Source of the DNA: Mesostigma viride
Lineage: Eukaryota; Streptophyta; Mesostigmatophyceae; Mesostigmatales; Mesostigmataceae
NCBI GenBank assembly: GCA_009746045.1
Contig: RPFO01000104.1
Coordinates: 1,703,109 to 1,767,108 of the forward strand
Direction of reading: 5' to 3'
DNA length: 64,000 bases
The notes under the pieces were generated by a model. The model was not told the origin of the DNA. It searched no databases and was given only the letters and a program-made list of their open reading frames with translations. The translations under genes and the position numbers were made by a program. This document shows, piece by piece, positions 1,800-54,002 of this stretch (position 1 is its first letter; each line of letters begins with the position of its first letter).

Positions 1800-4675
1800 C
1801 TATGCTCCATCTTTGAGATGGCTGGTGCCCCCTGATCGCTCGAGCTGGGACATGATCTCCGCCGCCTGGTGAACCCACCCAGGGAGAGTGGTAGATAGAC
1901 AAAAGACACGCAAGGGGATCCACCCAGGGAGTCAAAACAAGAAAAAGCAGCTAAAGTGCATCCATCCAAGAAGTTCCCCGCAAACACATTCCCCCACTCA
2001 TCTAAAGCGTGAACCAAACACTACAAACAAGGGAACCCTTAAACCCTTATAAAATCCCCTTCAACTGGGAGGGTTGGGTGTATGACTTTGTCCCTTATAT
2101 CTTAGTATCTGTGTCTCAATAAGGCAGAAAGTCATATGCCCAACCTTTGCCCATGGCAGTGAGGCATGCAGTCGTCCCAAATGTTACCGGCCTGCCAAAA
2201 TTGGCTCATTGATATGCCACACTCTTCGACGAAATGGCATCATGCCAACACACGTCATGACACTGAGAGCGATCATGACCAATCATGAAACCCAACGGGA
2301 ATGGCATTCTCAGTCTCCGTTTCTTCCACGAAAGCACGACTTCTCATGCGGGAAAGTACACAGTACCCTGTTCATGAACTAAGTGACATGAGGATGGCTG
2401 ACGTGGTCATACACAAATCGTTTGATGGACGTACTAGACTGCCCCACGAGCATAACAACTATTTTCACACAAGGGTGCTTCGGAGAGCCTAACGTGGACA
2501 GTGCCCATTGCCTCCCAACAGCTGACCAAGGCTTTAGCTTTCACAAGAGTCCTTTGTCAGAATACGGACGCGCACCTTGGCTACGATAGCTACAACAGTG
2601 GAACTGCTTGTACGGCACACTGAAGTACACTGCAGCACTTACACTGACCTGGTGCTTTCAGTGACCTGATGCTTACAGGGACCTGGTGGTTACAATGACC
2701 TGGCCCACCTGCATCTCACCTCAACAGAGTGCACGATAGCATTCATACAAACCTCCATGTATAGTGACCACACGACTCCTGGATCCAGGTTTGTACATTA
2801 CACCAAACTACAGTGACCCACCTGTTCCTCGATCCACATGAGCGAGCTCGTGTGGTTGTTGAGCGCGTGAGTACATTATAGCGAGTACAGTGTCCTGCGA
2901 TGATAGTGACCCACCTGCTCCTCGATCCACATGAGCGAGCTCATGTGGTTGTTGAGTACCCCAACCGCCAGGTCCACGGGGTTGGATGGCTGCGCACCCG
3001 CGGCGGTGCCGGTCTGCCAGCAGTGAGCCAAGCCATCGCGGATGCCGGGGGAGGGGGGGGGGGAGGGGGGGCGTGGATTGAACATTTGTCCGCCAAACAC
3101 CCAAACAAACATACACCCACACGCACATGCCTCTCCCCACACACGCCAACACACATACAGGCACCCCACACCCACCCACACAAGCCCACCCACACATACG
3201 CCCACACGCCCACACATACACCCACACGCCCACACCCACACATACACCCACACGCCCACGTCCACACATACACCCACACGCCCACGCCCACACATACATC
3301 CACACGCCCACGCCCACACATACACCCACACGCCCACACATACACCCACAAAGTGACCGAAGGGAGTTAGGAAAAAGGGAGCCAGCGTGCGCAAGGACCA
3401 ACGTGAATAAAGAAAAAAACAGGCTAACGGGAATAATGAACGTGAATCGATTCATGAGGGCCAACGTGAGTCCGCGCGTTGGAGTAAGGGGAAGGGGAGC
3501 CATCGCAAGCAAAAGAGACGTGAGTTCGCGCGTTGGAGTCAGGACAAAAGTCAGGACAAAGGGAGGCCACGCTAGTGAGGACCAGCACAAGGATGAGACT
3601 GTGTCACCCGCCAGGTTTCTAACCAGACATGGCGTCGTGATGCAGGCAGGCGGAAGCCAGCATCGCTTGACCTGTCCCCCACCATGCGTACAAGGATGGT
3701 GGCGGCAAGCACCCGTCCCTCACCACCCGTACAAGGATGGTTGCAGGCACCTGTCCCTCACCACGCTTCGCATATGAACACCCCATGCCCCTCGCGACGC
3801 CCATTTACAAACACCTCCTGCGCCCCGCGACGCCCTTCAGGGACACCCGGTGCGCCCCGCAACACCCCGGAAGAACCACCAGGGAAGACACGGCTGACAA
3901 GGCTTCGGGAACATTGCATGCGAGCGGCGAGGTGACGACGATCAAGGCGACGGCGAGACAGCAGTGCATTGGTGGTCATTTGGGGGGTGGGTCATTGGTG
4001 GCGTTAATTCTTTCCCCCCCCCCCCCTTCCCGTCCACATGGGGAGGGGGGGGGATCCCCCTCCATCTGGTCACTAAGCTCCCCTGCGCTTTAACTGACAA
4101 GTAGCGGCCGTTCCACCCTACCGTCGTGCACGGCAACGGCTACCAGAGGGTGGATTCGACTGTGCTAGCTGGGGTGGAAAGGAAGGAAACTCGAGCCTAC
4201 CCCCGGACAGCCAGTATTCACATCCAGGCCAAATGCCCTTTCGACCAGACGGCCAAGCCTGTCATCGTCGACTTTGATGCACCTCGACTTGGACGGATCC
4301 CGGTCGCAGTACAAGCAAGACTGTGCAATCGCACGCATGTTGAGACTCTGCAACGGTAGCACACTGGAGCGACCGCGTCACCTGCTGGATACCCATGTAA
4401 ACGATTGCATGGAGCCGTGCACACATGCGGGCCAGCTCTGGTCACGATAGCATCGCAAACACCGCCCTAGAGTGACTGGCTTACCCGCTGGTTGACCGCC
4501 TTGATGATGTCATTGAGGCGTTCGCCCATGTATTCCAGCTGGCTGCTGACGGCGAGCGCCCGGTCATACCTGCGCAGGAGAGTAGAGACACGCGCATGCG
4601 CGCGCCCACCCAAACGCACGGTGTTCACACACACACACAATAAAGAAACGAATTAACACCAAAAGCAAACACTCG

Positions 4676-5937: not shown

Positions 5938-5984
<47 letters not shown>

Positions 5985-8900
5985 AGAAGAAGAAGAAGAA
6001 GAAGAAGAAGAAGAAGAAGAAGAAGAAGAAGAAGAAGAAGAAGAAGAAGAAGAAGAAGAAGAAGCGCGGACAAATACGGCGACTTCTTCTTCTTCTTCTT
6101 CTGCTGCTGCTGCTGCGTCCTTGTCTTCTTCTTCGTCGTGGGCTCCTGCACATCCTCTCCCTCACACTCATGACTTCCCTCAGTCCCCGCCACCTTTCCT
6201 TCGACCATGGGAGCCTCAATGGCCTCATTAGCAGTGGTGACATGCTTCAAAGACTTGGGGCCAACCTTCAGAAGCTTGTACGAATTGCTCGGGCAACTAA
6301 TACGTTTTCACCTGCGTTGCTAGGCCAGACACAGACGCACACAGAGACACACGCAGACGACCGCTCAACAAACCCACACGCGCCACTTTACCCTCGAGCT
6401 CTGTTTCACATGCCCTGTTTCACATGCCCTGTTTCACATGCCCTGTTTCACATGCCATGTGTCACATGCCCTGTTTTACATGCCCTGTTTCTGGCATACT
6501 AGCCAGGCTACCACATCCATCGCAACGCGCTCGGCGGCGGCGTGGTCCCCAAGGGGTGACGTACGAGCATTCTAATGGTAATACTGTATTTAGTGTACAA
6601 TACTATACTTAGTGTACAATACTATATTTAGTGTACAATACTGTATGAAGTGTACAATACTATATTTAGTGTACAGTACCACTCATCTAGCCACATACAT
6701 GGCAACGCGCTCGGCGGCGGCCTGGTCCGCCCCGTTGGCCAACCCGTGCTGCCGGAACAACTCCTCGGCTTGCCCCTCAATTGACATGAGCGCCTCGTGC
6801 ACCTGGGGGGGGGAAGGAGGGGGGGGGGGGGGGGGGGGGGGGGGAGGAGGGGAGCGGGGGGGGAATGTGCAGACAGTGATAGCGGAAAAACAGTGAGGGT
6901 TGGCTTTGGGACCCTCAGGGCGGAACCTCGACAGACCTGCCAGGTGTAAACAGGTGGTGCGCAGACCTGCCAGGCAAGTGCATGCATGGGCCGGCACCTC
7001 ACAAAAAAGTGCAACTGCAAAAAAACAAACAGAAAAAACGAGTGCACTCTCGGTGCACTAGCGAGCTAGCACTATCCCTCGCACATGGTTGTAACGGCAG
7101 TTGAAACAAACTACAAAGTCGTACTGGCTTTCAGCCGGTAAGCAGTAGGCGGTGTTGACTAGGCAATAGGCAGGCAGCGGGCGGCGGGCGGCGGGCGGCG
7201 GGAGGCGGGAGGCGGGAGGCGGGAGGCGGGAGGCGGGAGGCGGAAGGCGGGAGGCGGGAGGCAGGAGGCAGGAGGCAGGAGGCAGGAGGCAGGAGGCAGG
7301 AGGCAGGAGGTAGGAGGCAGGAGGCATTTTTCGGGCCAGTTTAATGAGCTATCTGTGGCTGATGGGGATGCATACGTCTGTGTGGCTGTGTGTGGCTGTG
7401 GGTGCGTGCGTGCGTGCGGTGCGCATGGTACACATGCAGGGCCCTAGCTCAAACGTCACCAGGCCATCACGTCACAAGCGCTGCCGAGAGCCACCAACGC
7501 GCGCTCCCACGCCCCCCGCTTGCTCCCCTCCTTTCCCTGTCATATGTGCCCTAAACCCCTGACCTGCTGCTGCCGCTTCATCATGTCCAGCTGCCCCCTG
7601 CCTTCCTCTTGCTACACCTTCTTTCGTTCACAGCCCACCCTGGAAACCACTCACCTGCTGCTGCTACTGCGGCTCGATCATGTCCCCTCACCTGCTGCTG
7701 CTGCTGCTCCATCATGTCCAGCTGGCGGTCCAGCGCACTCTGTGACAGGTTTAGCTCCAGCATGCGCTTCTGCGTAGCGTTGTTTGGTGTGTGTGGTCGT
7801 GTTGGTTGGGGGGTTGGGATCAGGGGGCAGATATATGGTGTTGATGCGTGTGGTCGGATGTGTTTGTGTGTGTGTGCGTGAGCGCGCGTGCGTGTGCTTG
7901 CGCGTGTTTTATTTTGTTTTTTTCGGGGGGGGAGGTACGGGAGTGGGCACAAGAACACGTTGGAGTCGCCACAACACTACGCTATCATTTTACAGGGAAG
8001 ATAAAAGAAACCGGGACAACCTGGTGGGTGGGCGGGTTGATAGGTAAAAGCAGGGACAGTCATACAACGTATTAAAAGCATAATCATGATAAACATGTCA
8101 AGAACAAATAGGGAACAAATTAAAGCAGGCACAGCCATATAACACACTAAAAGCATAATCATGATTAACATGTCAAGAACAATCAGGGAACAGCTCAAAG
8201 CAGGGACAGTCATAAAACGTACTAAAGCCTAGTCATGATAAACATGTCAAGAACAAATAGGGAACAAATAGCATAGAAACAGCGAACTAATACTGGGGGG
8301 GGGGGGACGAATATTGCGAGAGGAGGGGAACATGGAGGAGGAGGGTGAGATGGGGAGGACGGGGGGGGAAGGGGGGGCAGAAAACGTTGTCGGCGGGTCC
8401 AGGGTCTGCAACAAGCGGTACTCCACTGCGCTTGTCTATAAAAATAACCCAAAGGGCACCCCCCCGATGAGACCTGGATGAAAGGTCATAGCAAAGATAC
8501 CCCCGTGGAAAACACCGCGACGTGCCCACCTCCAAGTTGAGCAGGGAGTGCCGGTTGCGGCGGATGTGGCCATCCCATTGGGCCAGCGCATTGGCCTGTT
8601 CCCCAAAGCGGCGTGATCTCTCCTCCAGCTCCGCATTCCACGCGTTGATGATCTGGCGCACGGCACGACACCGCGAGTAGGCACATGGCATGGCAAGGGG
8701 GCATATGACATCACAACGCAAGTAGGTAAACACCACTACAAGGGGGCAAACTACGCCACAACGCAATTAGGTAAACAACACCACAAGGGGGCAAAGGGCA
8801 ACACAAGGCAGGCCATTGCAAAACAATGGCACTAACAAAAGGGGCGGTCGGCATCAAAAAGAAGACCGACGGCACCGCAAGGACGGCACCGCAACCGCAC

Positions 8901-11900
8901 GAGGGCCAACAGGGACGCAAGCGGGAGAATGACACCAAAAAGGGGGCAGGGCAAGGGTGAGTGCTGTGGATAACATATATCGTTTATTAGCGCATGAGCA
9001 CATGGACTAGGCAAGGATCGCAGGGTGTTGGGGAGAGAATCGGCGCGAACAACCATCATCTTCAACCTGGATGAACGCATGAACAACCATCATCTTCAAC
9101 CTGGATGAACGCACCGCGTCGCCACATAGCCGAGGGGACACGCGCACACACACGAGGCAAGGCAAGGCAAGAAAAGACTAGGCAGGCAAGGCAAGGAAGG
9201 CCGCACCGACGAATGCAGGCACGTCCGTGGTTTACAGTACCAGGGAGGTTGCCCAGGCCCAGGGTGTCATGCTTGGGGCAAAAAGATGTGCAACCCAGCC
9301 ACCTACATACCTCCCCCATGCCTGGCGTGTAGGGTCGTGAATCATATGAGCTGGATGACAAAGATAAGCGAACTTAGTAATATTATGGGATAGCTTTCCA
9401 AATAATAACTACCCCTGCTGGCATACCCACGCGCCTCCTCCCCGCTCTTGCCGACCCAGCCACCTCCTCCCAAATTTCGGGCTTATGGTTCAGAATCATG
9501 GACATCTTACACTGGCATAGATTTCAAAATAAACTTTCCTCCCCGCAGGCCAACCCACACACCTCCTCCACGTTCTTGCCCACCCACGCACCTCCACGTT
9601 CTTGCCACCCACGCACCTCCACGTTCTTGCCCACCCACGCACCTCCTCCACGTTCTTGCCAACCCACGCACCTCCTCCACGTTCTTGCCCACCCACACAC
9701 CTCCTCCACGTTCTTGCCCACCCACCCACCTCCTCCACGTTCTTGCCCACCCACGCACCTCCTCCACGTTCTTGCCCACCCACGCACCTCCTCCACGTTC
9801 TTGCCCGCAATCTCTGACGGAGGTTTGGACGGGCCGCCCAGCGTGCTGGCTGCCGCACCCGGGGCGCTGGCGGCCGCACTTCCCGCGGTCCCAGATGGCA
9901 GTGTGCTGGCACCTGCCCCAAAGGATATACCGGCGCCCGTGGCGGCTGCACCTGCCGTAGCTGGGGTGGACGCGGCTGTGGACGCGCCGCCGATGCTGCC
10001 GAGTAGCCTGGCACAGCAATTTCACATTCCGACCAGGGGGAGGGGCAGGGGAGGGGCAGGGGAGGGGGGAGGGGGGTGGGGGAAGGGCAGGGAAAGGGTA
10101 TCAGATGGCGGATTATGTTATTGAAGAAAAAACATGTAGTAGCTCTGTACCATTTGATGCAAGGGGAGGGGCAGGGAAAAGACATCGGAAGATGGAGTAT
10201 GTTACTAAAGCAACAAGGTACTACTTTAGTAGCTGTGTACTGGTTGATGCAAGGGGAGGGGTAGGGAAGACATTGGAAGATCGAGTATGTTATTTAAGCA
10301 TTAAGGTACTACTTTAGTAGCTGTGTACTGGTTGATGCATGGGGGGGGGGCAAGGGGAGCGGGAGGGGAAAGGGCAGGGGACAGGGGAGGGGATGGGGTA
10401 GGGGATGGGTCAGGGGGAATAAGGAAAAGGCATGCCACCACGAGAGAGGGCAATAAACTAGGAACAGGCGTGGCAGCACAAGGCAGAGCAATGCATGATG
10501 AAAAAGGCATGACAGCACAAGAGAGGGCAAGAAGAGACGGTGCATGACCAAACAGACAAGGCAGACACATAGGAGGAAAGGAAAAGACAAGGCAGACACA
10601 GAAGTAGAAAGGAAAAGACAAGGCAGACATGTCAAAACAAGACGCGCCATCATGTCAAATTGACCCCAAACAGTTGACCATACCCGGTGCCGATGCTGGC
10701 CCCTGTCCCCCCCAGTCCCGCCCCGCTGCTGGAAGACGTCACGGGTGCCGCCGTGGTCGTCGCCGTCGCACTTGACGACGGCGCCGCGCCAAACGAGGGC
10801 AGGCCACCGAAACTAAAACCGCCACCCGTGGACGCCGCCCCCGTCCCTGGGCCGCTCCCTGCCGTGGCCCCCGTTGTGCCGGCACCAGTAGCACTACTCC
10901 CTGGGATGGCCAAGGACGGTGAGCTGGTGGCGGCCCCAGCAGAAGAGGACAGGCCACCAAACAGGGACGGGGCGGATGCTGCCCCCCCGGTGCTCGGGGC
11001 TGGCGTCGCCGTCGCAGCGCTACTGCTAGCAGCCGGGACCGTGGTGGCAGCGGTACCAGTGTCTGCGGCACCAAAGCTGAACCCACCACCAGCGCCGGAG
11101 GACGCTCCGAACAAGGGCGTCGAGGTGGTCGCGGGGGTCGACTGCGTGCTCGCAGCTGTCCCGGTCAGCCCAGATGGGGCGGACCCGGCCCCGAACAGCC
11201 CGCCACCGGTCGTCGCGGCACCAGTTGCGGGGGGTGGCGTCACTGTGAAGGAGAGACCCCCGCCCGTGCTGGGGGCGGCTGTGGTCGTGGTGGCAGGGGC
11301 GGGGGTGGCGGCGGGGGCGGTCGTTGCGCCAAACCCTCCAAAGGAGAACGCGGGGGCGGCACTGGCGGCCGACCCCGCACCGCCAGCTGGCGTGATACCG
11401 AACAACGGCGCGGGCGTGGAAGCCGACGAGGGGGTAGCCGCGGGGTTGGCGGCGGGGGCAGGGGTGGGGGCCCCAAATAGGGATGGGGCGGAGGACGCCG
11501 CCCCCGCCCCCGTGGTGCTCGAGAGTCCGAAGGAGAAACCCGTGGAGGCCGCGGGGGTGCTGGCAGGGGCGGCCGTTGCGGATGACGGAAAAGTAAACCC
11601 GCCCGTGGAGGCAGCCGGGGCGCTGCTGCCAAAGGCGGGGGTGGTGGCGGGGGCGCCAAAGGCGGGGGTGGTGGCGGGGGCGCCAAAGGCGGGGGTGGTG
11701 GCAGGGGCGCCAAAGGTAGGGGTGGATGGGGCACCGAACGCAGGGGTGGTCGACGCGCCGAATGCGGGGGTGGAGGCCGCACCGAACGCAGGGGCGGGGG
11801 TGGCTCCGAAAGCCGGGGTGCTTGCCGCACCGAATGCAGGCGTGCTGGCCGCACCGAACGCAGGGGTGCTGGTGCTACCAAATGCTGGCGTGCTAGCACC

Positions 11901-32500: not shown

Positions 32501-35500
32501 CTATTCCCTATTCCTTCCTATTCCCTATTCCCTCCTATTCCCTCCTCTTCCCTCCTATTCCCTCCTCTTTCCTCCTATTCCCTCCTATTCCCTCATCGGC
32601 CCTCATCTTCCTCATCTTCCCTGATCCTCCCTCATCTTACCTCCTCTCCCTCATGGTCCCGCTTTAGCTCGCCTCGGCTTATCTGCCTATTCCCATGCTG
32701 GCAAATCATAATACTGGAGCCCATGCCCCCATAATAATAATGCTTGACCCCACGCCCCACCGTGTGCAGGTGACCATTGCATACCCGGATGAGGGCGCCT
32801 GGAAGCGGTTCCACATGCAGTTCCAGGGCTACCCGGAGGTAAGTAGTGTGCGTGCACACGCACAAGCCTGGCCACGAGTCTGCGTTGTCTAGCGTTGTAT
32901 GGAGCCCGGTCGCCTGATCACAGCTTGCCATCATCCTTGCTTCCCCGCAACACAGTACCCTCCTGCACCCTCAGAAATGACAGGGATATACCCCTTCAAT
33001 AGGTGCCTAGTGACATACCCCAGGAGTAGGCGTCTAGTGATATACCCCTTCAATAGGTGCCTAGTGACATACCCCTGGAATGGGTGTCTAGTGATATACC
33101 CCTCGGATAGGTCCTTGGTAATGTACCCCTTCAACCGTAACTTGACATGGTAGTCTAGAGGGAAGGAATGATGTGGGAGAACCGAATGTGGCAGAATTCA
33201 TGGCTGCCTTTGTTAGGCGCGTGTGGTATGGTTGCATGCTTGTGTGGGTGTGGCTGCTCGCTCCCGATCATGTCCACCCCGACAATGTTGTCTGTTCATG
33301 TCACTCACCTTGGGGGCCCATGCTTGCCCGGTGGTCTTGTCCAGGTGATCTGCACCACCATATGCTGTCAATGACTTCATTCTCACTCTCATACGCCCAT
33401 GCTTGTGTGGTGTGGTTGCTTGCTCCAGATCATCTACACCAGCAGACACTGCTCATTCATCCCTTCTCACTCTGGTGCCCTTCTGTGTTTGCATGTGGTT
33501 GCGTTGTCCAAATCATCTGCACCAGCGAGCACTGTCCACTAATTATTCTCTCTTTCTCGGTGTACTAAGTACTCACTCTTCACTCTCTCGTACTCATTAT
33601 TCTCTCTTTCTCGGTGTACCAAGTACTCACTCTTCACTCTCTTGCGTGTGCGGTGTGGTTGCTCTTGCCCAGATCATCTGCACCAAGGTGCGTGACGGCG
33701 ACAAGCGCATCGTCCAGCTCAAGGAAGGTCAGCCGCTGGGTCGCCACGTCGTCATCGTGGATGACCTGGTGCAGTCCGGAGGCACGCTGCTGCAGTGCGC
33801 GGTGGGTGACCCATAGTGCATGCCCGTAGCACAGTAGGGGCTATATAGGAGTAGTGCTACCTGCGTGTGCGTTGTTGTACAATGGCCTTTGTAGTGACGA
33901 TAGGTCGTGGCTGCAGTGCATGGGTGGCTGTTCTCAAGGGCGCGACACTGCAAGCATACGACTAGTGTCAGCCCGATGAACCCGTGAATAGGAGGCACAA
34001 GTAATATCAGCCCGATGAACCCGTGAATAGGAGGCACAAGTAATATCAGCCCGATGAGCCCGTGAATAGGAGGCACAAGTAATATCAGCCCGATGAATCC
34101 GTGAATAGGAGGCACAAGTAAAATCAGCCCGATGAACCCGTGAATAGGAGGCACAAGTAATATCAGCCCGATGAACCCGTGAATAGGAGGCACAGGTAAT
34201 ATCAGCCCGATGAACCCGTGAATAGGAGGCACAAGTAATATCAGCCCGATGAACCCGTGAATAGGAGGCACAAGTAATATCAGCCCGATGAATCTGTGAA
34301 TAGGAGGCACAAGTAATATCAGCCCGATGAACCCGTGAAAAGTTGGCACAAGTAATATCAGCCCGATGAACCCGTGAATAGTAGGCACAGGTAGTGTCAG
34401 CCCGGTGAACCCGTGAATAGGAGGCACAAGTAATATCAGCCCGGTGAATCCGTGAATACAAGGCACATGCATCGAGCTAGCCCATGGTCACCTTGCATGG
34501 CCTACGTATGTGCAAACCATGAAGGAGTTATGGACTACTATATTGGCAAACCATACAGAAGTTTCCTAGCCAACCTTTTGGGGGTTGTGGTTCAATATCT
34601 GAGGCGCGGCTGCAGCATCCTACTTTTGATTAATTATGGGCAAACCATAAGCGAGTTTAATGCCAATTCCGTACATCCACAACGCCATCAGTCTCCAGGT
34701 CACCGGTTACCGGTCATCGGTCCTTCATAGCCAGCCCGCTGATATATCTTGTACCCATACCAACGCTATACCAACGCTATGCTGTTTTCAGCTAAACCGT
34801 GTAGGCCTCGCTCTGAACGAGCGCCATCCCATCATTATTAGCCCATTATCATTGCCGCATAACGCTACACATTTCCAACTCCATGTCCATCGTTCTGAAG
34901 AAGTCGTCAAACCGCGATAAGACGAAAGGCAGGCATGGGTTCCAGGCTTAGATCTTCTGGGATTGGGGCCTGCGCGCTGGTTGTGACCGATGCCTCGCTT
35001 CTTCTGATTGCGCCCGCAGAATGTGCTCCTTCCCCGTCAACATGCTCCCGCTTATGGTACCTGTGTCGCTTTCGGCCATGCTCCCCCCACATGCTTATGC
35101 TCGCGCACGCAGAATGTGCTCCACGCACGTGGCGCGGTCAAGGTCAGCGCGTACGCGACACATGGCGTGTTCCCACAGGAGTCGTGGAAGCGCTTCACGC
35201 AGCCCGCAGGTACGACCCCGATCCAACAGACACACGCAAGTGTGTGAAATAAGAACAAGCATAATTGGTGAATGGCACTGTATCGGTTCTCGCAGCCCGC
35301 AGGTACGAGATGGAGCCAAGCGTAAAAAGAATTACTCTCTTTCTTAAAAGAAGAGGACAGCGCATCGGCACAATATCATGGCAAGCCAACCACCTTTCAC
35401 GTGACCGTGGTCATCAATAGCGGCTTGCGTAGCCCGCTGGTAGGACAAGGGTCCAAATGTTTGTATACTACTAGTAGCATTTGTATACTAGTATATCAAG

Positions 35501-36186
35501 GAGACAACCATACTAGTATATGGTTAGGGCCAGTTGATGTGGTTAGGGTGTGGGCACGCCGATGGGAACATGACCAGTTCGACCCGCCTGCAGGTGTGAC
35601 CCGCACTGGCTACTCTAGCTCACGGTAGCTGAGTGCTAGTGGAGAACAACTGGGCACCCCTACGAGGGGGGTCGCCGCAGCTAGCCAAGGAAAGGGAAGG
35701 GAGGGTAGGCGCAGACAGTGCGACTGAACTCCTCGGATTGGATCCCACACAGTGATAATAATAATACTAGCAGCCGGCAGGTGCATTGTGGTGGGTATGA
35801 ACGGGATCCAAGTAGGGAGGGACCTGTGGCCCAGGGTGCAAAGTGCCAGAGCAGTGGGTATATTTTGGGGAATGGAAGACTGGGTTTCTTGTAGCAGTTC
35901 CCCTGGGACCATCCGCGTGACTCGTGACAATGTGGCGCAGCGTCTCCCTGCGCTTGGAAGTCCTTCATGGATGCATCGGGGATTGATTCGTTGCTGCGCA
36001 CTGAATGCTTCTGTTCTCGCTGCCCGTGGTTGCGGCGTGGTTGTGGCTGCAGCGGACACCGGTAAGGGTTTCACCCACTTTTGGATCAGCGACTCGTGCT
36101 CCCAGACGGTCGCAGCCATCCGCGGCGTGAAGCCGTTTGAGATCCTCAGCCTGTCCGCCTCGATTGCGGCTGCGCTCCAGATATAG
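29559..36186 (+). CDS. PRS: Ribose-phosphate pyrophosphokinase (PRPP synthetase), plant class II type, 7 exons
   Basis: Converts ribose 5-phosphate and ATP to PRPP for purine, pyrimidine, His and Trp synthesis. Exons: 29,559-29,683; 30,251-30,566; 31,310-31,405; 32,770-32,838; 33,673-33,801; 35,113-35,209; 36,053-36,186. All introns are GT-AG and phases match; the product is 321 aa. The PRPP-binding loop [13 protein letters not shown] is at residues 228-240. Other plant class II signatures are [70 protein letters not shown] and [10 protein letters not shown]. Plant class II enzymes are known to be phosphate-independent. No transit peptide is seen, so a cytosolic PRS4-like role is likely, unless an extra 5' exon was missed. 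The introns carry exon-edge copies and long satellites. Confidence 0.95.
29748..29938 (+). repeat. tandem copies of PRS exon 1 end with donor
   Basis: Four copies at ~48-bp spacing of the exon 1 end (tgcatatcgctgcccaccgt-type sequence, then GGAG|GTGGGT). The first copy retains most of the exon sequence and later ones drift. Confidence 0.9.
30078..30128 (+). repeat. degenerate telomere-like (TTTAGGG)n stretch
   Basis: Runs such as tttggggtttagggtctagg followed by gtttgggctttagggtctag resemble plant/green-algal telomere repeats. It lies in PRS intron 1, so it would be interstitial. Confidence 0.6.
31467..31522 (+). repeat. copy of PRS exon 3 end and intron 3 start
   Basis: Matches 31,388-31,440: ctgcccgatgccaa, then a run corresponding to the donor region and gccttgttatgct. 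The donor GTGAGT is replaced by gatggga in the copy. Confidence 0.88.
31917..32600 (+). repeat. 10-bp polypyrimidine satellite (CTCTTCCCTC)n, ~68 copies
   Basis: A phase-locked 10-mer array in PRS intron 3. Variants succeed each other in blocks: CTCTTCCCTC, then CTCGCCCCTC, then TTCTCCCCTC, then CTATTCCCTC. On the transcribed strand it is pure pyrimidine. The long Ser/Leu/Pro frames are artefacts. Confidence 0.97.
32985..33140 (+). repeat. ~29-bp tandem repeat, ~5-6 copies
   Basis: Unit atacccc-ttcaataggtgcctagtga in PRS intron 4. Confidence 0.9.
33252..33530 (+). repeat. dispersed copies of the PRS exon 5 acceptor and first codons
   Basis: Four copies (about 33,252, 33,335, 33,410, 33,495) resemble the real junction at 33,650-33,690: tgtggttgct, pyrimidines, CCAG, then ATCATCTGCACCA. 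Here the 3' splice site, not the donor, was copied. Confidence 0.85.
33960..34470 (+). repeat. 39-bp tandem repeat, 13 copies
   Basis: Unit atcagcccgatgaacccgtg plus aataggaggcacaagtaat. Units are 39 bp (13 codons), so frames stay open across the array. Located in PRS intron 5. Confidence 0.96.
35008..35310 (+). repeat. copies flanking PRS exon 6 on both sides
   Basis: At 35,010-35,030 the acceptor and exon start (cccgcagaatgtgctcc) is duplicated upstream of the real one (35,111). At 35,290-35,310 the exon end and donor (cgcagcccgcaggtacga) is duplicated downstream of the real one (35,209). A weaker copy occurs near 35,428. Confidence 0.82.
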
Positions 36187-39415: not shown

Positions 39416-39431
39416 GCCACCGTGGCCTTGT

Positions 39432-43468: not shown

Positions 43469-46400
43469 ATGGCAAGCGCTAAAGACATAAAATCTCGGCC
43501 AGAAGACACGATCGTGGTGAGGCATTGCATTGTAGACCTTCGCACGGGTTCTGCTCGATCCTCCCCCCCCCCCCCTTCCACCACCTCCACCACTATCACC
43601 CCTTTTCTGGTCTTACCCAGCAACCGTCGGCCTCCAGGCAGGCGCGTCGGATTTCGCACGACGCTGCGATGCTGCAGCTTGTTCGCTCAAATAGTTTGTC
43701 AGCAAATAAAATAGAAGGATGTACCTGTGTCTGCATTCTCCATACCATGGCTTGAGACTACGCCGTTATCTAATGCGCTTGTCAGATATTGTTCATAGTT
43801 GTTAATCTACTGCGCTCATGCCAACATTGGGTGGAAGCGCAATGCCTGCAGTTGTCCAGCATAAGGCACAGGGTTCAAACAGTCTTGACAGTGCTCCGGG
43901 GCCTCCCTATGAGGGCGCGTAGACACGCCTTAATTTAGTTAACTTGTTTCAAGGATAGTAGTAGATAGATTGACAAGCATGTTCAAGCTGGTGGGCGAGT
44001 ACCTTGACACCTGGGGTCGATTGGGAATGTGTGGCTTTCTATCTCTTCCAGACCATGTTTTTCCGTCCAGCATAGCTCAGGGGGCCAATTTGCTATGTGT
44101 GGCTATCTATATCTTCCAGGCCATGTTTTACCGTCCAGCGTAGCTTAAAGGGCCGATTGGCTATGTGTGGCCATCTGTCTCTTCCAGGCCATGTTTTACC
44201 GTCCAGCGTAGCTCAAAGGGCCGATTGGCTATGTGTGGCCATCTGTCTCTTCCAGGCCATGTTTTACCGTCCAGCGTAGCTCAAAGGGCCGATTGGCTAT
44301 GTGTGGCCATCTATATCTTCCAGGCCATGTTTCACCGTCCAGCATAGCATAGGTGGGCATGGGTGGCATTGTCTGGCTTGACATGTGCGGCTATTTATAA
44401 ACTGGCTATTTAAACATTTTTCTGGCGTCATGCACGTTGGGATAGGAGGCACCGTCTAGCTTGACATGTGTGGCTATTTATGTCTTCTGGCATTGTGCAG
44501 GTTGGGGTGGGGGGCATCGGCATCGACTATGTGGCCACCGTCGACAACTATCCCCGCGCAAATGACAAGATCCGGTCCAATGATCTCAAGGTGAGGGCGG
44601 GCGTGTGTGTGGGCACATTCACGGTGAGGGTGGGCGTGTGTGCGGGCACATTCACGGTGAGGGTGGGCGTGTGTGTGGGCACAATCAAGGTGAGGGTGGG
44701 CGTGTGTGTGGGCACAGTCAAGGTGAGGGCGGGCGTGTGTGTGGGCCCATTCACGGTGAGGGTGGGCGTGTGTGTGGGCGCACTCAAGGTGAGGGCGGGC
44801 ATGTGTGTGGGCACAGTCAAGGTGAGGGTGGGCGTGTGTGTGGGCACAGTCAAGGTGAGGGCGGGCGGGTGTGTAGAAGAGCTCAAGGTCAGGTTCGGCT
44901 TGCGTTGCTGCCGTGTAGAAGAAGTCACTCTACTATATACTAACCAGCCGATTGCATGGTTCTGTATTGTTTGGCTCTGTGTGCAAAGACCTGTGGCACC
45001 TATGACTAATAGATAGGCTATTCTATAGATAGGCTGGCGTAATTAGCTAGGTAATACAAACCCGCCACCTTGTCCGTGTTCTTTGCGCCACGTGCTGGGT
45101 GCTGAGTGGTGACAGCACGGCAGCTTGGCCGGCGCACCAATGCTCAACCATCCCCTCAGCCCTTGTCGCTTACACCCACGTGCCAGACATGTCCTCCCCG
45201 TGTAGAGTGGCCGGTGCACTTAAGGTTGATTCTCCCATTCACCTCGTCCTTCCACCTCGTAAGGTTAATCCAGTCACCTCATCCCAGCGTTGTTTGTCGT
45301 TTGCCAGATCCTGGGCACTGGCCACATGTTTGACGTGGGGGGGGGTCCTTCCACCTATCACTAATCCATCTACCTCGTCCCCGCTGCACATGCGTGCCAG
45401 ATCCTGGGCGGTGGCAATGTGGGCAACGCCCTCACCGCATCGGCACGGCTAGGCCTCCGCCCCGCCATCCTCTCCAAGGTGTGTACAGGTGCTCAACGAT
45501 TATTGTTCCTATATACTTCATTATTAGCGGCCCTCCGTCTCCTCTCCAAGGTGTGCGCAGGTGCTCCACGATTGTTGCTCCTATATACTTCCTTACTAGC
45601 AGCCCTCCGTCTCCTCTCCAAGGTGTGCGCAGGTGCTCAACGATTGTTGCTCCTATATACTTCCTTACTAGCGGCCCTCCGTCTCCTCTCCATGGTGCAG
45701 GTGATAGTCTTTGCGGTCGCTCCTATGAGCTACTACAGATGCCATGCCATAGCAGGAACGCGGCTGGGATGTGTTGCCCCTTCATCCTCTCCAAGACGTG
45801 CTCGGGGGCATAGTACTTGAAACAGGTTCCCCCTACAAGGCCATCAGGTTCCCTCCTTAAGGGTTTCAGCTTGCCTCACCTCACTACGGCGATCGGCCAG
45901 CGTGGAGCATAGCTGACTGGTACTCGGCATAGGTCTTCTTGCCTCCGTGGCGACGGATGGCAATCAGACCAGATGTCCCTCGTGCGTGCGGGGCAGAAAG
46001 CACTTCCTCCCTCGTTGCGGTGCCCCTGCGGCCTCCCACTAGAGGCATATGTGCATATGCGCGCATATGTAAAACTTGCTATCCTTCTTTCCCCAAATGC
46101 CTGCCGGGGGCATCTGCCAGTAGAATATCTGCTGGTGGAAGAGCTTAGTATGCTTGCATTCGCAAGGTCGTGGTGCCGATGGAAGTTAGTTTCGGGCACT
46201 GTGGCTCCCCAGCAAAGGTGCGTGTATATTTAGGTAATTAGTCAAATAATTGGAATTTATTTGATTATGCCGACCTTGCCGGTGCATGGCTGGGCACACA
46301 GGTGGCGGATGATGCGACGGGCGACAGCATACTCAAGGAGCTGGAGGCGGACGGCATCAGCACCCAGCACATCAAGGTAGGCTGGATTAAGATGTGGTGG

Positions 46401-49400
46401 ACCAGCAAGCACATTAAGGCGGGTGGATGCATCAGCACCCGGCACATCAAGGCGGGATGGATGAAGGTGTGGTGGACCAGCAAGCACATTAAGGCGGGTG
46501 GATGCATCAGCACCCGGCACATCAAGGCGGGATGGATGAAGGTGTGGTGGACAAGCAAGCACAGAAAGGTTGGGTGAATGCATCAGCACCCCGCAGTGAG
46601 CACAGCAAGGTATGATGCATCAAAGTGTGGTGGACTGACGTGTGCACCAGGCTATGATGCGACCTACGTTTGGTGGCAGATGAATAGTCGTTTTGTGGGT
46701 GAGTTTTCTGCTTGCAATCGGCGGTTGAATGCCTGACTATATTTCATCCCTATGGCTTTGTATCTACATGTGTCAGGCCTGTGTCCATTTTTTCGTTTTC
46801 TATCACCGTTAGCGAAGATCATCCGTCCGCCCGTGCCTGACGTCATTCGTCCACCCATCCACCTACCCGCATCTGGCTGCTTAAGGTGCCCCTATTCAGG
46901 GCACGAGTTAGTGACCGCACTTCTCATTTTTTCATGTCAACTGACCGATCCCTTCCTTTCGTCATCCGCCCTGGACGTGGCGATGGCGCCCTGCCACCTG
47001 GCGCAGATCGGCAAGGGTGGCACGTCACCGTTCACATACATCATCGTCGCCAGTGTCGGGTGGGTGCCCATACTTAGTACTACGGAGTATGCCATGGAAT
47101 AACTACACTATAGTAGCATTGCTTTTCCTTAGTTCTGGGTGGGTGCACATACTTAGTACTACGGAGTATGCCATGGAATAACTACACTATAGTAGCATTG
47201 CTTTTCCTTAGTTCTGGGTGGGTGCACATACTCTGTAGTCTGTATAGCTTGTATTTATTTTCTTTCGGGTTCTTCTTCTTTTCGGAGTTTTCCTTTTGTT
47301 GCATGCCCATCTTAACTCCGTAATTTATCATTCTCAATGAATGTATAGCTTTTCCTGAATGCTGGGTACAGGCTGCTTGGGCACCTATACTTGGGCACCG
47401 CCTATTCCCAGGAACTCACCTGAGGGAACTCGTCGGAGGTGATGCAATAGTCGGTCCCCTATTAGCTTAAATAGGGGAGTGGATAAATGCACGTCTGGAT
47501 GGGGTTGTGGCGGCAAGAACAGATGTCGACGAATGACAGAGTCACACACTACGGTTGACCCAGATACTGTAATACCAGTTGTACTCCTATCACCGGACCC
47601 AGATACCAGTTGTACTCCTATCACCGGACCCAGTTACTGTAATACCAGTTGTACTCCTATCACCGGACCCAGATACCAGTTGTACTCCTATCACCACTTC
47701 AGCGGGGTAGTGTGTACCGGAATGAAACCGACCTGAGGACGATAACCACGTATATTTGAGCCAGCGGAATGGTAGAACAACTCTTTCACAGTAAAAATTC
47801 TTGTAGAACAGAAAACAGTCTCTTCGAGAGTTAACGATTTGCAGCCGATTGTACTCCCAGCCTGAGTAAAGGGGTAGGGAGCTGCATGGGATGATTGATG
47901 GCAAGTATCAAAGTAGTGTACTGGCTAATGGCTTCTCCTTGACCCCGGCATGTGTAGTACTGCGGACCAGAGTCTGGTGGTTTCTTATCAACAGGGTACT
48001 AGCACAGAACCATCGTAAACCGGCTTCTTAGTGACCCCAGCATATGAAGCACCTCTGACCCGTCAGCCCGGTACCGCAGTACCAGTCAGTGTGCTCTGAG
48101 AGATACTGTGGGCCTTCCAGTACCAGGTGGTGGAGCTGACAGGTGGGTGGTTCAGACCCCTGCAAGGGGGCATCTGCGCAATGCCTCCCCACGTCTCGCG
48201 GCCGCCGCTGTCTTGCTCGACCCTGCTAGCGGCCAACCCCGGGGGCTTGCCCCCTGTCTTGCGTGCGGGAGCTGTCCTCCCTACTAGGACGTGGAAGCGA
48301 CGCGGCTGCCTAGAAATAATCTGCCAAAGCATGCGTGTGCATCTCCGTTTGCCGATACGCCCGCGCAGAAACACGCGCACGTGCATCCACCAGCCTGGCA
48401 CGCCGGCGCTGACGCCCGACGAGGTCTCACCCGCAGACGTCGACAACTTGCTCCAGGGCGCGCACATGGTCTTCTTCGACGGGCGGCTGCCGGACACAGC
48501 CATCAAAGTGGCCCAAGCGGTGCGTCTAGTAGCTGTGTGGTTGATCGCTCCAGTGCAGATATGCTGGTAGTGTGCGATGATGCCTGCCGGACACAGCCAT
48601 CAAAATGTCCCAAGCGGTGCTTTGAAGACCTGAAATGTCGACAAAATAGTGTATACTGTCATAATGGCTGCCGGACGCTGTGGTGTTCAAGCTGGCTCAA
48701 GCTGTGTGGTGTTCACATAGTACCATAGTACTAAAGTATATTGTAGTACTATGGTATATGCCGGACGCTGTGGTGTTCAGGCTGGCTCAAGCTGTGTGGT
48801 GTTCACATAGTAACATAGTATATTGTAGTACTACAGTATATTGTAGTACTATAGTATATTGTAGTAGTAAAGTATATGTATGAACCGTTACCATGTTTAT
48901 GGCTGCCGGCCACTGCGGGTCGTGGTACGCAGCGAATCCATTTGCTGAAGCGCTGCCCTATCGCTTTCTTGAGATCATATACTACCGCCTACGGTCAGGT
49001 TCCATCACTCCATATCCTTGGCCATTCTTACTGCCAAGTACCATCATGCGCCATCGCTTGCCATCGGTCACCGTCACTCCCTATTGCTGACCATCACGCA
49101 CCATCCCTGGCCATTCACTATCATCATCCCTCCCTTGTGTGCGCCTCCAACCTGGTGCCTGCCACCCCTACCGCCCTTGCCTCCCAACCCAACCACCCTG
49201 ACACCTGGCAGGCGGTGGCCAAGGGCATCCCCATCCTGGTGGAAGCCGAGCGGCCGAGGGAGGGTCTGGACCCTCTGCTGTCACACGCCGACTATTGCAT
49301 CACCTCCACCGAGTTCCCTGAGGTGAGTTCCCTAGGATAACGCGGGCTTCCCTGGTAGCCTGTACCCAGGCGATGAGTTCCCTGAGGCAGGGTTGTCCTA

Positions 49401-52400
49401 AGGAGGTGGTTTGCGGTGGGGGTTGTTCCGTGAGGCGGGTTGAGGTGGGTTGTCCTCACGAGGTGGTTTGAGGTGGGGGTTGTTTGTGAGGCGGGTTGAG
49501 GTGGGGTTTGTCTAATGAGACGGGTTCCGTATTAATGATTGGATCCTGTTCCACGAGTTGGTTTCTTTTTCACGCTGTGGTGTGTGGTGTGGTTTAATCA
49601 ATTAATTAATTAAGGCGTTGGGATTTGTTTCATAAGTGAGGTTGTTTGCACAAGGTGAGTTTTATGTTAAGAGGTGTTCTTTTTCCATGCGGTGGGTATC
49701 TCCATGGGATAGGCAACTTAGTCGATTTCGCGCTGTCTCAGAATCCTCCGCTCTATCAACATATACCCGTCAACATATACATAATTACCTGATCAACATA
49801 TACGTAATTAATCAACATATACCTCTCTGGACGGGTGGCGTCTCTGGCAGTCAAACTCACGCCGCCAATGCCTTGCTCTTGCGGGCATGTGTTTAGCAAC
49901 AAAGCCTCCCCAATCTAAACCCCTGCCGGCACGCTGTAGAACAGATCAAGTCCTCCCAACGCTCCCAATGCTGCCATGTCAACCATTCCATTCCTTGCAA
50001 TGCACTCCCCCCCCACCACAGGAGCGGACAAACACACACACAAAGTACACAAACATACACAAACATATGCTCGCGTGCGGACACACAGACAAGCATGCAC
50101 ACACACGCACACACACATTCGCACACATTCGCACACATTCACACACATTCACACACGCACACACGTGTGCATACGCACACACAGATGTTCACACACGCAC
50201 ACACACGCACTCATGCACAGACACGCATGCACACCCACGCACAAATACACGCACGCAGATGTGTGAACCAACCTGGCCAAGCATTTCCACCCACCATTGA
50301 TCAAACCTTGTCCTCACCCACCGTTGATCAAAGCATTTCCACCCACCGTTGATCAAACCTTGTCCTCACCATTGATCAAACCTTGTCCCCACCCCGCGAT
50401 CTCGCCTCCCCCCAACCCGCCCTACCACCACCAGTCATGGACCAAGCTGCCCAACCTGGCAAACTCACTCACCGAGATGCTCCACCGACTGCCCAAGGCG
50501 CGCTTCATCGTGACCACGCTCGGCGACCGCGGGTGCGTGATGCTCGAGAGGCTGCCACCTGGCGAGAAGCTGCCCCCCCGCGATGCCATCGATGTGCTTA
50601 GGGACACAATGGGGGCGTTTGCGCCCCCCGAGTCTGGATGGGTGCTGGAACCTGCCGCGGCGGCGGGAGGGAAGGCGTTTGGGGCAAAGGAGAAGGGGGC
50701 AGCGCCGGCGGTGGCAGGGACGGGACTCGCCAAGTTGCCACTCAAGGAGGCCATGGCCAAAGGTGGGTGGGGGGTGGGGGGTCTTTGCTAAATAATGCCG
50801 AGTCTTATTTTTTCCGGCAAGGTTAAAAGACCAGCAACTTTTGCGCCAAGGATGCTGGCGAGTTAACGTTGCCAGAATAAATAATACTTCGGAGTTTGAG
50901 TGTCGCAGTGGCAAAAAAGCTTCCGATGTTATTTAACTATGTAAAAGGTTCCGATGTTATTTAACTATATAAAAGGTTCCGATATTATTTAACTACATAA
51001 AAGGTTCCGATATTATTTAACTATATAAAAGGTTCCGATATTATTTTACTATATAAAAGGCTCCGATATTATTTTACTATATAAAAGGTTCGATGTTATT
51101 TAGCTAATTGTTCCCATGGGGACAATCGAGTGATTACTGCCATTCTCAAAGAGGCCATGGCCAAAGGTTGTGGTGGTGGGGCGTTGTTGGGGTAATCGCC
51201 CTACGGTTTTGGGGTGGGGGGCATGTTGGAGGCGGCAGCTGAAGGGGAGAAACACAGCAGAAGGAGAGAAACAGCTAAGGTGCCTGACGGCGTGTTTGGG
51301 GAGTTTTTGTTCGGGGTTGAGCCAAGGTTGGGCAGGGGGGTGAGAGAAAAATGTTTTAGGGACACACGTGTGGGAGGGCACGCAGCATTGTTGAGGGGTG
51401 TTAGACACCTCAGAGGCTGGGATCCCCTACTGGGGCCTGCATTTAAAGTGAAGCACATCACATAAGGGGAGGGGGGAGGGGGGAGGGGGGGGGGCTCACA
51501 TCACGAATAATTTATGGCAAAGCACATCACATTAATTAATAACTTTAGTTGTTCATTTTAATTTGGAAACACATCACACAAGGGCTTTTCAGGCATGTGG
51601 TGGTGCTCCGGCATCTAACCAGAGGCGCGTGTTTCTCTAGTCACATGTATCAGAGCTATCTAGTGCTCAATTGCGCGGCCACCTCCCAACAGAGGCACGT
51701 ATTTCCTGTGGTTGCTTCGTTGATGCCACCACCGCCAACAATGTTTACTGACCTCCCAGCACCTAGGCAATGGGCAAGCCACATGATGGTTTTGCTTTTC
51801 GATTTGGTCCCACATGCCGTCCTTCCTGTTAACTACAAGCACGTAGACTCCATCATGGTAACCTAGTATTGCCTCCAAATGGCTCTCACGATGAACCCCC
51901 CTGGCATAAACGAGGGTACAACCAGCATGCCAGAATAATGAGGGTGCGACAGAGGGGAGGGGGGGGGGACGATCAGAAGTGGCATGCCAGAATAATGTCA
52001 ATAAAACCTGACCACCTGCTTCGGGCCAGCGCCCCACCCGCTCCCCTCCCTGCAGGCAGCAGTGTCAGATGCTCCCCGTCGCACCTGCTGACGCGTCCCA
52101 GGGACCTGCTGTCCGACCTGGCGGGCAGCTCGCAGTCGCCGCTGAACGGCCGCTTCTGGTTCGCCAGTGCGGTGCCTGTGCAGGACGCTGACATCGTCGA
52201 CACCACGGGGGCGGGCGATGGGTTCATTGGGGCGTCTATCTACGGTGGGGGGGGGGGGGATGTCCATCTACGTTGGGTGGGGTTTCTTTACACGGGTTGG
52301 TTATTCATCAGCACTGTGAGATGTGATTCTATGGTGGTGCCCTCCACATACAGTCCATCCATCACCATGAGATCTTAATTGATGCAGATTTCAAGCTGAT

Positions 52401-54002
52401 TTGTGCTGATTTATGGAGTGATGGGCAGTGCTTTGAGATACCGAAAGTTGTGGTCGTTGATGACAGAAAGCTCTACGAGAAGGTACTATGCGCTGGATCG
52501 TGAGGGCCCTTATGTAACCTAATTGTCACGCATAACAACGTATTCCCTGTATGTCTTCCATGCTAGCTGCAGGTCTTATCCAGCTAGCAGACGCCCACAA
52601 AAGTCACCTGGGTGTGGTTTGTCGGCGTCACTAAACTACCCACTCACGCCATGACCCAACCCCGCCGCTGATCACTTGGGCGCAGTCAGGGATCTTGCCT
52701 CCCACATCGCCCATGCCGTTGCCTTTGCCTTAGGACTTGCCCTCACGTCGCCGTTGTCCCTGCCCCGTCCCCTTGCTCTTGTCGCCTTGGTGTGCAACCA
52801 GCCCTGGCGATGGGCCTGCCTTACGACAAGATGCTGCGGCTGGCGAGCACCGTGGTAGGTTCTATGATATGTCTTCTACGGCTTTGCAAGGCAACCCCTT
52901 GGTATATAGATGATGCGGATAGATGATGTAGATAGAATCTTGGTTCTATGGTATGTCTTGGTATGTAGATGATATGGATTGATGATGTAGATAGAATCTT
53001 GGTATAGATAGTGTCTTGATATATAGTTTTTTTAGATAGATTATATAGATGTTGTCTTGAATTGTATCTGTGCACGTTACATTGACCTCTACGATGCTGC
53101 GGCTTGCAAGCTCAGTGGTTGATACTGGCACTGCTTGTATTTATTTGGTACATCAGCAGTAGCACACTATAGCCCATGCACCACACAGTGACCTGACCGA
53201 TGCTGAGGCTACCACTATCAGCCCTGTGCTGCTGTGTGGTACCGTGGTGTAATAGCATCCTTTAGTCAATCTCACCCCACAGTGACCAAGGTGTCGCGGC
53301 TAGTGATTGCCATGGTAAGCATATGACTGCCTAGACAGTCCTCAAATCGTCTGCCAACTGCCGACCTGTCTAAGATTCATATGCTAGCCTACACCTGCAT
53401 TGTTTGGGACGTGATTCCATGCCAGCACCGCAACGTGGCCTGGTGCCTGATTCACTCCGTTGCGTGTACAGCACCCTCGCAACTGCCGGCACACACGGAA
53501 TAGGGGCCAAATTGTGATCAGTGTGGACTTCCTTGGAGCGGTTGGCATCTGTGCCTGGCCTGTGCCACACTTGGTAATATGTGAAAGATTTTGTACGATA
53601 CCGAGCGTGTGTGGATGTTTCCACACACCTTGTGTGACCATGTGCGTGGCCGCTTTCCCTGCTATCAAGGGGACAGCATCGAGCTATTATGCTGATGCGT
53701 ACACGATAACTTGTTTGTGTCTTTGCTATGACTTGTCTGTGTTGTTGTTGTACCCTCTTGCGAGCCATTGTCCTATATCGTTCTGCATGGTCTCACCATG
53801 GGATACTTCAGGTGCGTGCAGTACAGAGCCATCACTCGGTCAAAAATATGTTAGTACTACTCCAGGTTGCTGACAAGTTGCTGACAAGATTCATCCTGAT
53901 TTTTCTCTCTTAATTGTCCCACAGGCCGCGAGGAACATCTGTGCTCTTGGGGCGAGGCCAGGCCTCCCTTACCGGAGGGACATTGATCCGGAGCTTCTTT
54001 GA
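43469..54002 (+). CDS. PfkB-family carbohydrate kinase, plant-like, 11 exons
   Basis: ATP-dependent sugar kinase of the ribokinase/PfkB family; substrate unknown. Exons: 43,469-43,516; 44,501-44,590; 45,401-45,478; 46,302-46,376; 47,007-47,059; 48,369-48,519; 49,212-49,322; 50,435-50,762; 52,056-52,244; 52,802-52,854; 53,925-54,002. GT-AG and phases agree throughout; 417 aa. N-terminal GIGIDYVATVDNYPRANDKI and the Gly-rich GGGNVGNALTASARLG form the sugar-binding side. PfkB signature 2, DTTGAGDGFIGAS, with catalytic Asp366, is in exon 9. Exon 8 has an Ala/Gly-rich insert. The order and length match an uncharacterised plant pfkB-like kinase group. An alternative ATG at 43,361, in frame, would add 36 residues (Arg/Ala-rich, a possible transit peptide). 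A TGTAA motif, the usual green-algal poly(A) signal, follows the stop by 11 bp. Confidence 0.93.
44020..44345 (+). repeat. ~62-bp tandem repeat, 5 copies, before PfkB exon 2
   Basis: The unit contains ggctatgtgtggccatctgt, ctcttccaggccatg and accgtccagcgtagctcaaa. The tgtggctatttatgtcttct run before the true acceptor (44,500) resembles it, so the array may derive from the acceptor region. Confidence 0.9.
44575..44890 (+). repeat. 30-bp array made of PfkB exon 2 end and donor
   Basis: About ten units of tcaaggtgagggcgggcgtg plus tgtgtgggcaca. Each contains AAG|GTGAGG, identical to the true exon 2 junction at 44,590. Because units are 30 bp, reading frames stay open. Confidence 0.95.
45302..45325 (+). 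repeat. copy of PfkB exon 3 acceptor and start
   Basis: gccagatcctgggcactgg copies the true junction at 45,397-45,415, about 95 bp upstream of it. Confidence 0.82.
45469..45705 (+). repeat. 72-bp array made of PfkB exon 3 end and donor
   Basis: cctctccaaggtgtgcgcag occurs at 45,469 (real), 45,541, 45,613 and 45,684 (mutated to ccatggtg). Exact 72-bp spacing. Confidence 0.94.
46360..46580 (+). repeat. 78-bp array made of PfkB exon 4 end
   Basis: gcatcagcacccggcacatc-aagg recurs at 46,425 and 46,503 after the real junction at 46,376. In the copies the donor GT has become GC (aag|gcggga). Confidence 0.92.
47051..47240 (+). repeat. 80-bp array starting at PfkB exon 5 donor
   Basis: gggtgggtgc followed by acatacttagtactacggag recurs at 47,139 and 47,219. 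The first unit starts at the true donor (47,060). Confidence 0.9.
47315..47348 (+). mobile_element. putative retroelement 3' end (AATG tail)
   Basis: cgtaatttatcattctcaat followed by gaatg matches 54,433-54,468, where it ends in (AATG)n. The shared end with a microsatellite tail suggests an unnamed LINE/SINE family. Confidence 0.5.
47555..47700 (+). repeat. ~31-bp tandem repeat
   Basis: Unit agataccagttgtactccta plus tcaccggaccc, about four copies. Located in PfkB intron 5. Confidence 0.92.
48505..48870 (+). repeat. copies of PfkB exon 6 end, then AT-rich repeats
   Basis: Copies of gccggacacagccatcaaag plus tggcccaagcggtg occur at 48,585, 48,667 and 48,760, drifting with distance. They are followed by gtagtactatagtata repeats. 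Confidence 0.88.
49310..49510 (+). repeat. copies of PfkB exon 7 end and G-rich intronic repeats
   Basis: gagttccctgagg recurs at 49,375 after the true junction at 49,322. Then come gaggtgggttgtcc/ggtttgaggtgggggttgt units. Confidence 0.75.
50035..50260 (+). repeat. ACAC/GCACAC minisatellite
   Basis: Imperfect CA-rich repeat in PfkB intron 7. The Thr/His and Val/Cys frames are artefacts. Confidence 0.93.
50280..50395 (+). repeat. ttgatcaaaccttgtcctca-type tandem repeat
   Basis: Four to five units of 20-30 bp just before the PfkB exon 8 acceptor. Confidence 0.85.
50935..51105 (+). repeat. 28-bp tandem repeat, ~7 copies
   Basis: Unit aaggttccgatattatttaa plus ctatataa in PfkB intron 8. Confidence 0.95.
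51139..51175 (+). repeat. copy of PfkB exon 8 end
   Basis: ctcaaagaggccatggccaa followed by aggttgtgg copies the true junction (50,741-50,768). It lies ~400 bp downstream, beyond the 28-bp array. Confidence 0.85.
53085..53230 (+). repeat. degenerate copies of PfkB exon 10
   Basis: acgatgctgcggcttgcaag at 53,091 and a weaker copy at 53,197 resemble exon 10 (acaagatgctgcggctggcg). The AG|GT-type donor is lost. Confidence 0.7.

Follow-up and report, generated by a model that had tools for sequence, protein, structure and literature searches.

Introduction

Why do the edges of exons, with their splice sites attached, reappear inside the adjoining introns of unrelated genes in Mesostigma viride? 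The question was raised by a 64,000-nt stretch of the genome of this streptophyte alga (the window; all coordinates are positions within it), in which an earlier note had described such copies in at least 17 of 25 introns. The window belongs to an assembly of 439.9 Mb in 2243 contigs. The available text of the genome paper describes a published assembly of 441.8 Mb, obtained with PacBio and an optical map, with a mean intron of 1142 nt (PMC6947507).

Gene models and introns tested

Twenty-five introns were rebuilt in four nuclear genes of the window (8+6+10+1), in agreement with the number given earlier. On the minus strand these were a gene which we take by resemblance to be Nup62-like (1800..14078; 9 exons, 8 introns) and one presumed on the same grounds to be glyoxalase-like (24951..26963; 2 exons, 1 intron), both identified by an open spliced frame. 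The plus strand carried PRS, a ribose-phosphate pyrophosphokinase (29559..36186; 7 exons modelled, 6 introns tested), and a PfkB-family sugar kinase (43469..54002; 11 exons modelled, 10 introns tested), both matching annotated proteins. All 25 modelled introns were GT-AG, and every spliced frame of the four genes was open.

The PRS model (321 aa) was contained letter for letter in the annotated protein jgi/Mesvir1/787, and the PfkB model (417 aa) in Mesvir1/788. The 16 modelled introns of these two genes agree with the annotated proteins, which require the upstream donor. The annotated PRS protein (P0001) has an N-terminal extension, a further upstream exon and at least one additional intron; the annotated PfkB protein (P0121) is longer at its start, its N-terminal extension being coded upstream of at least one additional intron. 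The figure of 25 introns is therefore a lower bound, and the edge tests covered the modelled introns, with these implied upstream introns set aside. With the annotated protein as guide, the custom spliced aligner placed all six PRS introns exactly; distant homologues gave 6/6, 6/6 and 5/6 of them (8 introns being predicted in the last case).

Exon edges are copied into their own introns

In the edge rank test, a query of 30 exon and 8 intron bases was aligned to the rest of the edge's own intron, and the score was ranked against 200 equal-length pieces of other introns, for the 50 edges of the 25 introns. Own-intron matches reached p<0.01 at 21/50 edges, comprising 16/25 donors and 5/25 acceptors, and 19/25 introns, PfkB intron 9 among them, had at least one such edge. 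With exon bases alone as the query, 16 edges of the window were significant (13 donors and 3 acceptors). In a control with the own intron reverse-complemented, the 95th percentile of the null was exceeded at 2/50 edges with the 30+8 query, and at 5/50 both with exon bases alone and with 15 intron bases, with 2.5 expected. The copies lie on the strand of the exon that they repeat.

A copy was scored where at least 6 exon bases were included and the score exceeded the null's 99th percentile. Such copies were present at 16/25 donors and 6/25 acceptors, and in 20/25 introns. Sixteen of the 17 introns listed earlier held a copy above this threshold; the exception was PfkB intron 5, where the match includes only 2 exon bases and is non-significant. 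Introns added to that list were PfkB 1, PRS 2, Nup62 7 and glyoxalase 1. PfkB 1 and Nup62 7 were non-significant in the rank test, and PfkB 9, significant there, was absent from the set defined by copies. The copies were tandem, many had a G|GT junction, and GT was retained in 33/45 donor-side copies of the window, as the remark that many keep GT had implied.

On the minus strand, Nup62 intron 3 contained five alignments of the exon 3 end and donor in a 29-nt unit (9418..9748), with a TRF array at 9549-9806, and intron 5 contained two copies of the exon 5 end and donor (7544..7665). One copy of the exon 6 end with its donor position read as GG was present in intron 6 (6508..6548; 38/41 identical), a weak and, by rank, non-significant copy of the exon 7 end and donor in intron 7 (4364..4426; 40/63; p=ns in that test), and two copies of the exon 8 end and donor in intron 8 (2752..2863), the best of which was identical at 50/52 positions and included 42 exon nt. 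Glyoxalase intron 1 held one copy of the acceptor and exon 2 start (25651..25671).

Copies in PRS lay on the plus strand. Intron 1 carried seven copies of the exon 1 end, most with the donor (29747..30203); intron 2 carried two copies of the exon 2 end and donor (30644..30792) and one of the exon 3 start in which the acceptor dinucleotide is AT (31076..31129). A single copy of the exon 3 end with GG at the donor was found in intron 3 (31468..31505), four copies of the acceptor and exon 5 start in intron 4 (33244..33524), one of the acceptor and exon 6 start in intron 5 (35001..35029), and two of the exon 6 end and donor in intron 6 (35284..35456).

The PfkB copies, also on the plus strand, began with a weak copy of the acceptor and exon 2 start in intron 1 (44420..44474; p=0.09 in the rank test). 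Intron 2 held eight copies of the donor with 5-6 exon nt in a 33-nt unit (44619..44874) and one copy of the acceptor and exon 3 start (45302..45322). In intron 3, three copies of the exon 3 end, two with GT, recurred in a 72-nt unit (45528..45809); in intron 4, three of the exon 4 end and donor (two GC, one GT) in a 75-nt unit (46406..46634); and in intron 5, two donor copies that include just 2 exon nt in a 79-nt unit (47137..47237). Further downstream were two copies of the exon 6 end and donor in intron 6 (48584..48706; best 35/37), one of the exon 7 end with GA as the donor dinucleotide in intron 7 (49375..49404), one of the exon 8 end and donor located 375 nt beyond the exon in intron 8 (51138..51189), and one of the exon 10 end and donor in intron 10 (53093..53126). 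The periods of the donor arrays named for Nup62 and PfkB ranged from 29 to 79 nt.

Recurrence in chaperonin genes

A genome search with the chaperonin family PF00118 gave 58 exon hits on 13 contigs. Seven loci, chosen before their introns were inspected, were modelled with human CCT and E. coli GroEL as guides, the models of the Group I loci L041 and L042 coming from GroEL. The 44 introns counted exclude the first predicted intron of L039, which had a weak splice context, and all three introns of L038, a second copy of L037. The hits on C777, C1407, C557, C1912 and C1106 also lie outside this sample, as do the C2011 hit, which is a single exon, and the remainder of the C1641/C887 gene. Adenosine kinase and ribokinase guides run on 12 background stretches supplied no gene for the test: in one stretch a gene scored high and had a single predicted intron, a doubtful one, another gave a gene with a 170-nt predicted intron, and the other ten scored low.

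Own-intron matches at p<0.01 were found at 12/44 donors and 3/44 acceptors, spread over 15 different introns, with 2 donors and 1 acceptor in the reverse-complement control. Exon bases alone gave 9 donors and 4 acceptors (control, 1 and 1). Exon-edge copying is thus real beyond the window, and about half as dense there. The proposal that it is a habit of the genome and not an accident of particular genes was borne out; the high density claimed (17/25 introns) describes the window and not the introns elsewhere (15/44).

When the 25 window and 44 chaperonin introns were pooled (69 introns), an ungapped match of at least 20/24 to the last 24 exon bases was present in the own intron in 15/69 cases and in 0/1380 trials with introns of other genes; at 18/24 or better the values were 18/69 and 2/1380. 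Exon edges do, as had been claimed, match their own introns more often than other introns. Introner elements were rejected as the source because the copies are not common to introns of different genes.

A clear case outside the window was intron 3 of a CCT8-like gene: the final 31 exon bases and the donor appear again from 9 bases into the intron, a 40-nt head-to-tail duplication of 31 exon and 9 intron nt. This gene occurs on two contigs (L037 on C1641 and L038 on C887) that are 96.3% identical over 3.3 kb, and the duplication is present on both. Their alignment has 15 gaps, none inside modelled exons; the pair may be alleles left unmerged or the product of a segmental duplication.

Duplications are frequent at donors and rare at acceptors

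The position of duplications was compared between short segments placed within introns, within exons and across splice sites, a segment being scored as duplicated at rank 1 of 61. Interior intron segments were duplicated in 112/300 cases in the window and 69/296 in the chaperonins (181/596 pooled), and interior exon segments in 4/92 and 5/192. Segments straddling the donor were duplicated in 15/25 and 17/44 cases (32/69 pooled) and those straddling the acceptor in 5/25 and 3/44 (8/69 pooled; donor vs acceptor, p=1e-5). Donors stood above the intron interior (p=0.009), also when the window (p=0.03) and the chaperonins (p=0.04) were taken separately, and acceptors below it (p=6e-4; chaperonins alone, p=0.01), the acceptor deficit being non-significant in the window alone (p=0.13). 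Enrichment at both intron ends was not seen in these 69 introns.

The donor excess could signal a true hotspot, with duplication starting at the 3′ exon edge under the influence of transcription, R-loops or splicing. Both the rank comparison and the class of matches of at least 18/24 agree with this (donor-straddling 24/69 vs interior 101/589, p=0.001; segments low in dinucleotide complexity had been excluded, and denominators are the segments that remained). Younger copies showed no such excess: at 20/24 or better the counts were 8/69 at donors and 76/599 in the interior, and at 22/24 or better 7/68 and 5/69 at the donor edge against 63/579. The suggestion that AG|GT-containing segments are specially copied was not supported by these counts. 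Copies of 22/24 or better were found at 0/69 acceptor edges, and at 18/24 or better there were none in exon interiors (0/260) or on the reverse complement (0/69). A model in which the exon side is frozen predicted a donor excess of 2.0x for exon-only segments and 1.4x for straddling segments in every identity class. The observed donor-to-interior ratios ran from 0.67x to 2.03x, and the fit is loose. Since a frozen exon side by itself predicts a similar and lasting donor excess, a donor-specific copying step seems unnecessary, and we regard a hotspot as unlikely.

Two further candidates were considered. Tandemly duplicated alternative exons were rejected, as they do not suit an exon overhang of only 6-56 nt (query capped at 60) together with the empty exon interiors. 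A process confined to introns seemed likely from the window alone, where repeats were found in 45% of 300 intron segments vs 9% of 300 pooled intergenic segments (14-19% in three separate intergenic stretches). It was weaker in a wider sample with 20 genome stretches as background: 141/1213 in introns, 46/445 in the window flanks and 30/646 in other stretches, the latter two being unannotated.

Fate of the copies and of the donors that they carry

The copies nearest the exon had been described as usually the best preserved. No such decay was seen; among the 69 introns, in those with at least two copies, identity was unrelated to distance from the exon (Spearman -0.06, p=0.66). The GT of the copies was retained in 118/130 bases vs 1394/1659 nearby bases (p=0.04). 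No purge of GT was seen in these bases, and the slightly better retention is unexpected if the copies are wholly neutral.

Fifty-seven look-alike donors bearing GT were found in 26/69 introns, 40-831 nt beyond the real donor, the nearest in each intron being 40-404 nt away, and 34 of the 57 fitted the consensus as well as the real site or better. Position and not strength must single out the real donor. Protein homology and annotation, rather than RNA, suggest that the first donor is the one used. In human test genes, the intron-proximal of two equal donors is reportedly often preferred, which is the opposite of the first-donor use that our best explanation needs. No donor-edge copy was found upstream inside the exon (0/69). 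A bias in reading frame held over all look-alikes, whose spacing from the real donor was divisible by 3 in 29/57 (p=0.007), and vanished when the nearest alone was counted per intron (10/26, p=0.68); it was rejected.

Growth of introns by this route was not measurable in their length: introns with donor copies (n=29) had a median of 810 nt and those without (n=40) of 731 nt (p=0.51). A composite account, in which the 3′ exon edge is a copying hotspot seeded by transcription or splicing, AG|GT copies act as ratchet or back-up donors and introns grow outward from their donors, is in our judgement improbable. That the copies are functional, as back-up or AG|GT ratchet donors held by selection, would suit their GT retention and the look-alikes that equal or beat the real site, but 38/69 donors had no copy with at least 6 exon nt, and copy number, spacing and phase vary, with no phase bias per intron. 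Maintenance by selection is accordingly quite improbable.

Birth of the introns from such copies is very improbable

Zhuo 2007 is among the references cited for intron gain by tandem duplication. In the Rogers model, tandem duplication of an exonic AGGT segment leaves between its two copies a stretch that becomes the intron, and the copies in M. viride had been proposed to mark such a route to new introns. Tandem copies of a splice-junction segment, many with G|GT, were indeed found at exon edges, in keeping with a gain of the Rogers type. The model also predicts that the donor and acceptor contexts of one intron are alike, and it fails because their likeness did not exceed that of shuffled pairs (9.68 vs 9.43 of 30 in the 25 window introns; 9.68 vs 10.18 in the 44 chaperonin introns); moreover, the copies sit inside introns that use a different acceptor. 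Intron birth is thus a very improbable source, and similarity between an exon edge and its intron is by itself no evidence of intron gain.

An artefact of assembly or chance is hardly credible, even with many simple repeats in the window (129 rows), a pattern first picked by eye and 2 and 5 chance matches of at least 18/24 in 1380 trials with introns of other genes, given the absence of such matches at 20/24 and of reverse-complement matches, the recurrence in chaperonin genes not selected for it, the PacBio and optical-map basis reported for the published assembly (PMC6947507) and the same copy on two separate contigs.

Other repeats in the window

Nup62 intron 6 contained a large inverted repeat (5451-6383) that looks like a fold-back element, with arms at 5451-5571 / 6263-6383 (96%) and 5638-5818 / 6083-6263 (90%); it encloses a (GAA)n tract roughly 300 nt long. 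The upstream PRS intron implied by P0001 (28220-29480) contained a 29-nt array of 13 copies, in which the repeated unit looks, by eye, like the acceptor edge of the same intron. At 62192-63600, Pfam identified retrotransposon gag and CCHC zinc-knuckle domains in two overlapping frames. Four coding-like stretches (37902-39400, 40020-41420, 1-480 and 54866-55270) have translations that look alike and are perhaps copies of one element; the frames at 37902, 40146 and 54866 had no Pfam match. A similar stretch, again judged by eye, occurs on opposite strands at 24280-24440 and 39430-39620; it contains a box resembling the 3′ part of a tRNA and may be a tRNA-derived SINE; no tRNA genes were found in the window. 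A 150-nt repeat, 99% identical, lies at 22374-22523 and 58663-58812, 36 kb apart.

A proposed model of local duplication filtered by splicing

The reading that we favour, with a probability of about 0.7, is ordinary local tandem duplication filtered by splicing, in which donor units are tolerated and acceptor units mostly removed; tandem duplication as the source of the copies, proposed earlier, is supported. Small local tandem duplications would accumulate throughout the introns of M. viride, arising probably by slippage or break repair. A unit that by chance straddled the 5′ splice site would copy the exon end and donor head-to-tail into the intron. If the upstream-most donor stayed in use, the mRNA would be unchanged and the event near neutral. 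Selection on the protein would freeze the exon side while the intron copy drifted, so that the resemblance would fade more slowly than it does between two copies lying within the intron. A duplication on the acceptor side would set another complete acceptor ahead of the real one, and would presumably be harmful in most cases and be removed by selection.

Should the pattern extend to the whole genome, M. viride would offer a natural experiment in how splice sites are chosen, in which the first donor is apparently still the protein-preserving one despite look-alikes in 26/69 introns. Donor-side duplications seem nearly free and acceptor-side duplications costly, a difference measurable on thousands of introns.

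Comparison with known systems

The earlier statement that no description of the pattern exists was too strong. Tandem repeats enriched near intron-exon junctions were reported in 2013 for Chlamydomonas reinhardtii and Volvox carteri (PMC3887541), so that tandem-repeat enrichment near the intron ends of green algae is already known; the donor/acceptor asymmetry was not met in the literature searched. Among the matches listed from the open-licence literature, as far as their available text goes, no paper described donor-edge copies with such an asymmetry, and the accessible part of the M. viride genome paper makes no mention of exon-edge copies (PMC6947507).

Human segmental duplications likewise have internal tandem repeats whose units lie at exon-intron boundaries, according to the text available of a 2009 report (PMC2812944), which describes 27 modified introns in recent paralogs and links them with new introns and with alternative transcripts. 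The M. viride copies, unlike these, occupy established introns in unrelated genes. In intron gain by tandem duplication (PMC4974935; Drosophila, PMC2891723), a segment with a splice site is duplicated in tandem, as in M. viride; the outcome described there is a new intron, whereas the M. viride introns lack a signature of birth. In Cryptococcus, gene structure is likewise altered by repeat expansion, which is reported to make introns (PMC2395259), but whole introns are multiplied there and only exon edges in M. viride. Chlamydomonas intron lengths are treated in PMC8226300.

A close parallel is with Chlamydomonas and Volvox, green algae in which, according to the available text, repeats are densest in introns and towards their ends (PMC3887541). 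That text reports repeat density and is silent on exon bases or splice sites within the repeated unit. These two are chlorophytes and M. viride a streptophyte, and, unlike them, M. viride has a donor edge enriched in duplications and an acceptor edge depleted of them.
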